A stretch of DNA of 36,885 nt. It comes from Phycisphaerae bacterium. GTDB lineage: Bacteria; Planctomycetota; Phycisphaerae; UBA1845; PWPN01. The notes under the pieces are model-generated. The model saw only the letters and a program-made list of their open reading frames with translations. It was not told the origin of the DNA and searched no databases. Shown in pieces: positions 9,314 to 12,280 of this stretch; within the stretch, counting starts at the first letter, position 1, and each line of letters starts with the position of its first letter. Position numbers and translations under genes: made by a program. The DNA lies in NCBI GenBank assembly GCA_012729395.1, contig JAAYDF010000326.1, positions 1 through 36,885 of the forward strand. The letters run 5' to 3'.

Positions 9314-12280
9314 TTAAGTGCGGCGGGTCGGTGCACGCAGGGCGCGGAGAGTGCGGTCGAGCGTCAGGTCGATGCTGAAGTGGTCGGTGACGGTTTGGCG
9401 GCCGGCCTGACCCATGCGGCGGCAACGCTGGGGATCGCGGATCAGCTTTTCGAGGGCGTCGGCGAGATCCGTGGGTGCGAAGCTGGGCAGCAGGCAGCCG
9501 TTGTGGCCGGGGATGATTTGCCGGGCGGCGCCGTCGGTGGGTGTGCCGACGACCGGGCGCTCGCACGCCATGGCCTCGGCGAGGGCCAGGCCGAAGGATT
9601 CCGTCAGGCTGCACAAGGCGAAAATGTCGAGCGCGCTGTAGAAGGCGGGCATATCGTCGACGAAGCCTGCGAAATGCACCGCGTCGGTGATGCCTCGCTG
9701 CTGGGCGAGGTTGGCCATGTCGGCTCGATCGGGGCCGTCGCCGGCGATGACGAGTGAGCAGGGCACGCGGCGCTGGCGGAGAATGCCGACCGCCTCGATG
9801 AGCAGGTCGATGCCTTTGCCGGCCACGAGCCGGCCGGCGGTGCCGATGACCGCGGGGGCGGCGTTGGCGGCGCCAGTGTTGGGCGAGTCGGTGTTGGCGG
9901 AGTCGGGCAACGACCATTGCCGACGCAGGGTTTGTCGGCCGGCCGGCGAGAAGCGGAACTCGTGCAGGTCCACGCCGTGCGGCACGACGTGGATGTGTGT
10001 CGGGTTCACCCCCTGCCAGCGGGTGATGCGCCGGCCGTCCTCCTCGTTGAGTACGATGACCGCGGTCGCGGCGGCGGCGGCGAGGCGGTGGCGCAGGGCT
10101 TGGGGGACGCGCCAGCTTTGCAGGCCCTCCATGCGTCCGCCGAACCATTGCGGCCGCTGGCGGCGGTGGTCGCGGGCCTCGACCATCTGGTGAACCCAGA
10201 CGACGGGGATGCCCGCCCAGCGAGCGAGCCAAGGATAGAGCCAGAACCGCGGTCGGCCGCAGGCGTTGATGACTACGCCGTCGGGTCGGTGTGTGGCCAG
10301 CATCTGGCGAAACGCCCGAATCATCCCACGTAGGCTGCGTGTCTGCTCGGGCGTCGCCAGAAAGGGTGTCAGGAACCTTTTCGCGTCTGAAGGCTGGGCG
10401 GTCAGCGCGAGCTGTGCGGCCGCCGCCTCGAAAAAGGTTCCTGACACCTTTTGTGGGGCCCAGTGGAGGTGGGCTTGCATGTCCCGGCGCTGAGCGGCGC
10501 GGATCATGGCCAGGATGTAGCGTTCCGCGCCACCGAAGCCGGGTGCATCGCTGACGAACGCCAGCCGAAAAATGGTGTCAGGATGATTTTTTAGGTGAAT
10601 AAACTCTCGGTTATTCACCTGAAAAATCATCCTGAGACCATTTTTCGACCCAGAGGGTGTCAGGAACCTTTTTGCGGGGCGCATCTCAACGCAACCGCCC
10701 AGCGGTGTAGTTCGGCCACTCTTGCCTGTACCCGCAAAAAGGTTCCTGACACCTTTAGGGCTGACAGCGTTTGTGAGCGTGTCGGCGAATTGGGCGGCGA
10801 GGGTTTGGCGGTCGTAGGCGTCGAGGCGAGGCCATGGTCGGGTGGGCCAGTGGTTGCCGCTCAGGTAGTTGGCGGCGATGCGTTCGATGGCGTTTTCGAC
10901 CTGGTGCGGGTCTTCCATGGGCACGACGGCGGAGGCGCCGGCGTTGGAGGCGAGGGCGGCGGTCTCCGTTTGCGGCGGTGCGAGCATAAGCAGATGGGTC
11001 GGCAAGGCCAGAAGCTCGAAGAGCTTGCCGGGGATGCACTGCCTGGTGTGCCGACAGTCGGGCACCAGGACCACGGAGCAGGCTGACTCGGCGATGAGCC
11101 GGATGACGGCGGCGTGATCGAGGTAGCCCGCCAGTCTCATCCAGGAGGGTTTGGCCTCCTTCCAATACCGCTGCTGCTTTGCGTCGAGCGTGCCGGCCAC
11201 AACAAGCCGCAGCCGCCCCTGCCATTGCGGGTGTTTGGCGAGCACGCGGCTGATGGGCTCGACGATGCGGCTCAGTTCTCGCCGTCCGTAGAATGCCCCA
11301 GCCGCCACGAAGACGCACTCGGATGGCTTGTTGACATATTGCCCGGCCAGCGCGGTCTGCACGTCGTCGCGATCGAAGCCATTGGTGATGGCCCGCACGT
11401 CTTGCGGTGTGCGATGGGGGTAGCGGGCCAGCAGATCCTCGACGAGTGCCTCGCAGGTGGTGACGACCATGGCCGCCCGTCGCATGACCTGGCGTTCGAG
11501 TCGGCGCATGATCTGGGCGTGATGACCGTTTCCGCTCGCCCAATCGAAATCGCTGACGAAGGGATCGCGTACGTCGGCGACCCAGGGTAGGCCGGTCGCG
11601 TGGGCGATGCGCAGGGCGACTTGGTGAGCGACGACCGGTGGGCCGGTGGAGACGATCACGTCGAAGGGCGTTGTGCGATGTCGTGCGAGAGCGGCCCGCA
11701 CCGCGGCGGCGATCCACAAGGACGAGCCATCGCCGAGGCCCAATCGCTCGGCCCAGCGTGCGAAGCGCCAGAAGAAGCGTTCCTCGATCCAGGCGGGCGA
11801 CCAGGCTGCTGTATGGCCGGCACCGGGCTTGGGTTCATCGCGGCGAAGCCATCGCAGGAAATCGCCGATTCGCCCGGCAAGGCAGGCTGGTTCGAGACCT
11901 CGCACTCGATGTACGCGGGTGTCGGTTGGGAGGTCGGCCATCAGCGAGGGATCGGACCAGGGGAATCGTTGGTGCCCGGCGGCCAGCACTTCGACCTGCC
12001 AACCGACGGCCGGCAGGTACTTGACGAGTTTCGCCGCCCGCTGAACGCCACTGCCGCCGGTTGGAGGGAAGGTGTAGCTAATAAGAAGCGCCCGGCCGCC
12101 ACCACCGCCGCCTGATGTGGTAACGGCCGGGGCATGTGCGATCCATTCCCCCCATGTGCCGGAAGGCGACCCGCCGACGGGAGCAGGCTCACTTGCTCCC
12201 TCCGGCGTCCACGGCCGCTCGTTCAGCGGTTTGGCCGTGCCCGGCAACCGGAATATCGGAACTTCAAGGCCGCAACTCAT
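9314..12280 (-). CDS. Tandem glycosyltransferase fusion (GT4-GT4) containing palindromic inserts
   Basis: A single 988-residue frame encodes two GT-B fold glycosyltransferases. Residues about 63-505 form the first (RALLISYTFPPTGGSGVQR ... PGKLFELLALPTHLLML). Residues about 572-985 form the second (RLAFVSDAPGFGGAERYIL, IGTAGRLVAGKGIDLLIEA, SLTESFGLALAEAMACERP with the GT4 EX7E region). Residues about 509-571 between them are encoded by two palindromic DNA elements, and residues about 611-639 by a third. The first 60 residues are low-complexity (including GGGGGGR) and precede the first beta strand. GAGG lies 7 nt before the ATG, which overlaps the TGA of the methyltransferase upstream (ATGA). 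The protein should act at the cytoplasmic face, transferring sugars onto a lipid-linked glycan; donor and acceptor are unknown. Independent re-initiation for the second domain cannot be excluded, but its internal ATG near 10630 has no good Shine-Dalgarno sequence. Confidence 0.88.
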   Translation of the reverse strand: MSCGLEVPIFRLPGTAKPLNERPWTPEGASEPAPVGGSPSGTWGEWIAHAPAVTTSGGGGGGRALLISYTFPPTGGSGVQRAAKLVKYLPAVGWQVEVLAAGHQRFPWSDPSLMADLPTDTRVHRVRGLEPACLAGRIGDFLRWLRRDEPKPGAGHTAAWSPAWIEERFFWRFARWAERLGLGDGSSLWIAAAVRAALARHRTTPFDVIVSTGPPVVAHQVALRIAHATGLPWVADVRDPFVSDFDWASGNGHHAQIMRRLERQVMRRAAMVVTTCEALVEDLLARYPHRTPQDVRAITNGFDRDDVQTALAGQYVNKPSECVFVAAGAFYGRRELSRIVEPISRVLAKHPQWQGRLRLVVAGTLDAKQQRYWKEAKPSWMRLAGYLDHAAVIRLIAESACSVVLVPDCRHTRQCIPGKLFELLALPTHLLMLAPPQTETAALASNAGASAVVPMEDPHQVENAIERIAANYLSGNHWPTRPWPRLDAYDRQTLAAQFADTLTNAVSPKGVRNLFAGTGKSGRTTPLGGCVEMRPAKRFLTPSGSKNGLRMIFQVNNREFIHLKNHPDTIFRLAFVSDAPGFGGAERYILAMIRAAQRRDMQAHLHWAPQKVSGTFFEAAAAQLALTAQPSDAKRFLTPFLATPEQTRSLRGMIRAFRQMLATHRPDGVVINACGRPRFWLYPWLARWAGIPVVWVHQMVEARDHRRQRPQWFGGRMEGLQSWRVPQALRHRLAAAAATAVIVLNEEDGRRITRWQGVNPTHIHVVPHGVDLHEFRFSPAGRQTLRRQWSLPDSANTDSPNTGAANAAPAVIGTAGRLVAGKGIDLLIEAVGILRQRRVPCSLVIAGDGPDRADMANLAQQRGITDAVHFAGFVDDMPAFYSALDIFALCSLTESFGLALAEAMACERPVVGTPTDGAARQIIPGHNGCLLPSFAPTDLADALEKLIRDPQRCRRMGQAGRQTVTDHFSIDLTLDRTLRALRAPTRRT
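10365..10448. repeat. Palindromic element C, inside the second GT4 domain
   Basis: The 17-nt arm GGTGTCAGGAACCTTTT (10365-10381) is perfectly complementary to AAAAGGTTCCTGACACC (10432-10448), with a 50-nt loop. In the gene's frame the arms read KVSGTFF and KRFLTPF, and the whole encodes about residues 611-639 in the variable N-terminal part of the second glycosyltransferase. It shares its arm sequence with element A. Confidence 0.9.
10567..10646. repeat. Palindromic element B, at the GT4-GT4 junction
   Basis: The arms 10567-10602 and 10611-10646 pair over 36 bp with two mismatches, around an 8-nt loop (ACTCTCGG). The arm begins GAAAAATGGTGTCAGGATGA, so its GGTGTCAGGA head is shared with elements A and C but the rest differs. 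It is read in frame as NGLRMIFQVNN ... HLKNHPDTIFR, immediately before the native start of the second glycosyltransferase domain. Confidence 0.92.
10656..10753. repeat. Palindromic element A, at the GT4-GT4 junction
   Basis: GGTGTCAGGAACC followed by TTTTTGCGGG (10656-10678) is perfectly complementary over 23 bp to 10731-10753, with a 52-nt loop. It lies 10 nt from element B and is read in frame as KGVRNLFAG ... RPAKRFLTPSG, immediately after the natural C-terminus of the first glycosyltransferase. Confidence 0.92.

Follow-up and report, generated by a model that had tools for sequence, protein, structure and literature searches.

REP-like palindromes of a RAYT system at the seam of two fused glycosyltransferase genes in a Phycisphaerae bacterium

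Neighbouring genes of an operon can fuse, in that adjacent co-directional genes of one pathway become one reading frame. The causes of gene fusions are usually inferred long afterwards, when the traces are gone. Short mobile palindromes are among the sequences known to be read in frame inside proteins. REP dimers and the classes of their RAYT transposases have been described (PMC3733652 and PMC6006769), and so have REPINs, including the covariation of the two sides of their spacer; REPINs are usually taken to move as a doublet plus spacer (PMC3116915). Intragenic REPs have been listed in many genes (PMC3733652), and in-frame REPs were reported inside tnpA-REP genes (PMC6006769). Frames of Rickettsia palindromic elements (RPEs) and of MITEs fused to genes have been reviewed (PMC2229807), and a passage of PMC4853749 mentions, via a citation, that MITEs are able to create gene fusions. 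In-frame REPs in single proteins are thus known (PMC3733652, PMC6006769). What appears to be new is that REPs join two enzymes: we found no report in the open-licence literature in which REPs link two separate enzymes, or in which one gene pair was joined twice by different REPs, and a search of papers for the REP sequence returned, among the matches listed, unrelated subjects only.

We analyzed a 36,885-nucleotide stretch of DNA (the window), positions 1-36,885 of the forward strand of contig JAAYDF010000326.1 in the Phycisphaerae bacterium assembly GCA_012729395.1. It contains one long reading frame in which two glycosyltransferase domains are joined, with three inverted REP pairs (A, B and C) at or near the seam. 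The features are as follows.

9314..12280, minus strand: single open reading frame of 988 aa, an in-frame fusion of a GT4-like first half and a GT4 second half
10757..12280, minus strand: first glycosyltransferase part, residues 1-508; a gene of its own in eight relatives
10656-10756: element A, inverted REP pair of the AACC subtype, in frame between the GT4 domains
10736..10756, minus strand: arm of A on the gene-upstream side, AACC subtype
10674..10735, minus strand: spacer of A, probable remnant of the original gene junction, unique in the genome
10686..10688, minus strand: TGA, probable relic stop of the first gene, now out of frame
10682..10684, minus strand: ATG, probable relic start of the second gene, whose frame it still shares
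10656..10673, plus strand: arm of A on the gene-downstream side, 18 nt, AACC subtype
10568..10645, minus strand: element B, two ATGA-subtype REPs in inverted orientation around a palindromic spacer; its 78 nt, a multiple of three, are read in frame
9317..10567, minus strand: second glycosyltransferase part, residues 572-988, GT4 (PF13439/PF00534); a gene of its own in eight relatives
10365..10451, minus strand: element C, a third pair of inverted REPs (AACC subtype), within the second GT4 domain
10382..10430, minus strand: spacer of C, found once in the genome; in length and predicted helix-strand it agrees with the host domain of homologues

The second half of the frame is a GT4 enzyme of the GT-B fold: PF13439 and PF00534 score above cut-off, and the best fold matches are GT4 structures. 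The first half is GT4-like, as judged from weaker stretches and from its match to a conserved gene of the relatives. RLAFVSDAPGFGG begins at residue 572. A preliminary description had placed two palindromes at this GT4-GT4 seam, encoding about residues 509-571, and inverted-repeat and open-reading-frame analysis finds both to be real and so located; the third element, C, had been missed. The arms found by the inverted-repeat search are 30 nt long and 90% complementary in A (10649-10678 / 10731-10760, containing a perfect 18-nt core at 10656-10673 / 10736-10753) and 37 nt long and 95% complementary, with two mismatches, in B (10566-10602 / 10611-10647). Those of C lie at 10365-10381 / 10431-10451. 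Seam residues 510-567 have pLDDT <50 in an AF2 model of the fused protein built on a shallow alignment, which is compatible with the behavior predicted of a flexible tether between two enzymes.

The palindromes belong to a high-copy family, as a search of the whole genome, suggested in the preliminary description, brought out. The core GGTGTCAGGAACC occurs in 58 copies (0 for the reversed control), GGTGTCAGGANNNTTTT with at most one mismatch in 194 (0 for reversed controls), and the element pattern with at most two mismatches in 212 (13 for controls). The conserved core is GGTGTCAGGA, accompanied by A/T tracts. There are two subtypes, AACC (A and C) and ATGA (B), found mostly as inverted pairs of 45-109 bp. 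Like a REP, the repeat is a high-copy palindrome of 20-40 bp that lies mostly outside genes, the great majority of the elements examined being extragenic or at the 3' ends of genes. Among elements spanned by long frames, no further fusion was found in this genome: the domains found sit to one side of the element. Several features are those of REPINs, since most copies are inverted pairs with complementary stems, and in each copy the bases that adjoin the arms on their inner and outer sides are complementary to a degree well above what the family consensus accounts for, giving copy-specific stems. On the other side, many spacers do not fold, one relative (G011) has mainly singlets, and spacers A and C look like host DNA. 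We had considered whether all REP pairs flank host hairpins, and dropped this reading because the spacers are a mix of folding and non-folding sequences; nor do copy-specific complementary spacers count as evidence of host hairpins, being already a REPIN feature (PMC3116915). Across about 60 pairs of the genome, roughly one spacer in three folds into a strong hairpin and the others do not. Where an ATGA-type REP stands at a 3' gene end, it gives the upstream gene its TGA stop (L073 1545, L081 1554, L084 1457, others).

The genome has eleven Y1_Tnp genes (Pfam Y1_Tnp above cut-off). Inverted ATGA-type REPs, about 745 bp apart, enclose one of them (L097); a second (L054) is preceded by an AACC REP, and around the other nine no comparable REP pair was found. 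The arrangement REP-gene-REP recurs at four loci (L227-L230) in three further genomes (G007, G009, G016), where the enclosed transposases are 53-76% identical to the RAYT of this genome; the AACC-type REP of G016 encloses a transposase that is nearer to the AACC-linked RAYT of this genome (57% versus 53%). A Y1 HuH transposase flanked by the same repeat, with HWH and Y motifs visible in translation, is found at L097 and at L227-L230, which bears out the suggestion of a Y1 REP-associated transposase. The sole NCBIfam family matched by the transposases is REP_Tyr_transpos (NF047646; E 2e-17 and 4e-15), at 56-63 bits against a cut-off of 80. Because they are high-copy and the same sequences flank Y1 transposase genes, the elements are REP-like and belong to a RAYT system, one outside the GTAG and CGTC superfamilies of PMC3733652.

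As in REP/RAYT systems (REPtrons) and REPINs, then, we see short high-copy palindromes that are mostly extragenic, often in inverted pairs with covarying spacer sides, and that flank a Y1 HuH transposase. Unlike those systems, the repeats have no GTAG or CGTC foot (in about 60 pairs the flanks have a T/A tract as their consensus), their core is GGTGTCAGGA with A/T tracts, their unit lengths vary as widely as stated above, and the transposases fall below the NCBIfam cut-off. TIRYTs/TIRtrons (PMC3733652) likewise combine a Y1 transposase with flanking inverted repeats whose further copies make up a dispersed family, but their GGGGWSAS motif is not in the repeats that we saw. Intragenic REPs and RPEs are also read in frame inside proteins, and for RPEs the likeness seen is this in-frame behavior. 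However, those elements decorate or extend one protein, whereas the present elements join two enzymes, apparently twice independently. The difference from the ordinary fusion of operon genes is that the agent can be recognized here: it is a mobile repeat that occupies the seam, together with what are probably relics of the stop and start.

The state of the two genes in relatives was examined in a family sample of 13 genomes; some of these are congeners, and the genus of the present genome is represented by this genome alone. A contig scan for close relatives gave three, all of them already in the sample. Ten carry the first gene, and in all ten the second gene adjoins it. The preliminary description had pointed to split orthologues, and adjacent separate genes are present in all eight unfused carriers (G001, G002, G003, G007, G008, G009, G011, G012); the two fused carriers are the present genome and G006. 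At the split junctions, TGA is directly followed by ATG in G002 and G011, the genes overlap by ATGA or GTGA in G003 and G008, a short gap separates them in G012, and intergenic stretches of tens to about 400 bp do so in G009, G007 and G001. Three of the split loci (G002, G011, G012) had at first look seemed fused, with an open frame of about 1000 aa, until the DNA was seen to carry an in-frame stop in each. No REP of either of the two families concerned (that of the present genome and the one of G006 described below) was found in the eight split loci; REPs are at two of two fused and none of eight split seams (exact p about 0.02 for ten genomes, some of them congeners). Among the genomes examined, no close relative has an empty seam, and the order of events (REP before fusion or fusion before REP) must therefore be read from the relic stop and start.

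These probable relics lie in spacer A, which contains TGA-G-ATG; a junction of the form stop-N0-3-ATG occurs in just 4 of 118 other spacer strands. If 20 nt of the left arm of A (gene-upstream, 10736..10756) are removed, the first enzyme ends ...AVSPCGYRQEWPNYTAGRLR-stop at the TGA. In-silico excision of the 18-nt right arm of A and of the 78-nt B gives M-R-P-A-S-G-S-R-L-A-F-V-S-D, with the ATG six codons ahead of RL, a spacing shared with G002 and G011; once REP sequence is taken out, MRPASGSRLAFVSDAP is restored. We consider it probable (roughly 0.72) that REP insertion into the junction of two adjacent co-directional glycosyltransferase genes made one frame of them. On this account, the first gene would once have ended in TGA, one base ahead of the ATG of the second gene. 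A REP arm of about 20 nt would then have inserted near the end of the first gene, shifting the frame past the stop and into the frame of the second, and further REP sequence (the right arm of A, 18 nt, and B, 78 nt, both multiples of three) would have kept the frame open. The preliminary description had proposed that palindromes inserted between once-separate genes and thereby removed the stop and the start. The insertion is supported. A TGA and an ATG still stand in spacer A, however, and the original stop and start were probably bypassed by the frame shift, not deleted.

Insertion could join genes because the AACC-type REP has no stop codon in the three forward frames and the REP of G006 none in any of six. 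At a tight stop-start junction, to judge from the sequences, insertion of a stop-free REP could carry the ribosome into the next gene. The ATGA subtype has a TGA in one forward frame and often ends genes. The predicted product of the fused frame is one bifunctional protein of 108 kDa, and the fusion would most likely be neutral in value, tethering two enzymes that act in the same pathway.

Spacers A and C are probably host DNA. Neither occurs again in the genome. At C, the fused protein is just 11 residues longer than its homologues, compared with about 29 for the whole element; the C spacer aligns gap-free to a homologous helix and strand, and AF2 models of the fused protein and of one homologue, from shallow alignments and of modest confidence, both put a helix-strand there. 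No sequence likeness of the C spacer to the host was detected with a profile of nine homologues, which scores shuffled C spacers equally well, and hexamer coding scores of spacers A and C favor the expected frame by a difference that is not significant. What counts against a host origin, and against the explanation that we favor, is that REPINs are usually thought to move with their spacer (PMC3116915).

The second fused carrier, G006, has one open frame of 920 aa through both enzymes. The preliminary description had named, as the finding that would speak against it, homologues that carry the same fused linker without palindromes; the only other fused relative has a REP of its own. Its seam holds the palindrome GGCGGGCAGGATGCCCGCC (G006:C66:24695-24713), which at up to two mismatches has 437 copies in G006, 0 in controls and 3 in the present genome, and which inspection of sixteen stretches identifies as a true dispersed repeat. 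This REP is also in frame inside two conserved enzymes of G006: an aldehyde dehydrogenase, as 42 residues absent from the solved relative 3rh9, and an HI0933-like flavoprotein. A maximum-likelihood tree keeps the two fused genes apart, and a forced sister grouping is rejected (AU p=0.037), so that the tree test weakly rejects a single shared fusion. The differing repeats and differing seams point the same way, and the two fusions would be two events.

Three other explanations were weighed. It is unlikely, in our estimate, that the continuous frame is accidental and unimportant and that the second enzyme is made separately from the retained ATG (10682-10684). Separate translation is possible because the old ATG is still usable: it is in frame with the second enzyme and, after REP excision, positioned like the starts of the split relatives. 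However, no in-frame stop separates the halves, which obliges ribosomes translating the first gene to continue into the second; the sequence ahead of the ATG shows no strong ribosome-binding site, and G006 has no start codon at that position.

We regard as unlikely too, and slightly the less probable, that an ordinary stop-loss mutation fused the genes first and that REPs landed later in a tolerant linker, linkers and gene ends being the places where REPs survive. Most REPs of this genome are indeed intergenic or at 3' gene ends, which makes any seam a likely target, and the copies in G006 are so many that 8-10% of junctions would hold one (a rough upper bound). Against this, REPs are at both fused seams and at none of the eight split ones, the joint chance being about 0.002 at an occupancy of about 2% in this genome and 8% in G006 (a rough figure for which gene numbers were assumed), and in this genome the first gene regains its stop once 20 nt of the upstream arm are deleted.

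Very improbable is an artefact, in which assembly or sequencing of a draft genome went wrong at short repeats and so produced the seam. Some contigs here do end at REPs, to which an insertion-sequence-like end is joined, but the frame remains open across all three elements, the sequence on either side matches the adjacent orthologous genes in the correct order, the independent assembly of G006 has the same kind of fusion, and the seam is mid-contig in both genomes.

Returning to fusion by REP insertion, we put at about even the odds of a broader reading, in which stop-free RAYT-linked REPs are a recurrent agent of gene fusion and, within one bacterial family, two unrelated REP families independently joined the same adjacent pair at the same seam, by a shift or a bridging of the frame where stop and start lie close together. 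If true, REPs may be a general route from operon neighbors to multidomain enzymes. At this locus the likely cause has stayed in place: what are probably the former stop and start can still be read, the ancestral arrangement is preserved in the split relatives, and another genome appears to have repeated the event with a repeat of its own. Two questions become testable: whether RAYT/REP systems, usually viewed as passengers outside genes, give rise to new protein architectures, and whether it is the stop codons of a REP that determine if a gene is terminated or joined to its neighbor.

Some minor observations concern the repeats and the gene pair. In G006, the three in-frame REPs (L184 at the seam, L188 at aa 155, L219 at aa 335) are all read in one of the six frames, as the hydrophilic GGQDARPP. 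A single REP in G002 (L126) corresponds to a tandem pair of 30-bp units in its congener G011 (L127), a recent local duplication. In most relatives the first or the second gene is preceded by a 27-bp motif, CTCAACT-N14-CCGATA (L030 574-600; L036 1333-1359 and 3094-3120; L037 2815-2841; further loci), which may be a family promoter; it is absent from the window and from the G006 loci examined. In the present assembly, about ten contig ends (L140-L145 and L147, at the starts of C24, C49, C78, C133, C180, C211 and C53; L049, L077, L100) have a terminal sequence in common. It comes in two variants, which share a GAATGGTACTGCCGTGCGG end, and is joined to a REP at C^GTGTCAGGA; it looks like an insertion sequence that targets one REP site and breaks the assembly there.
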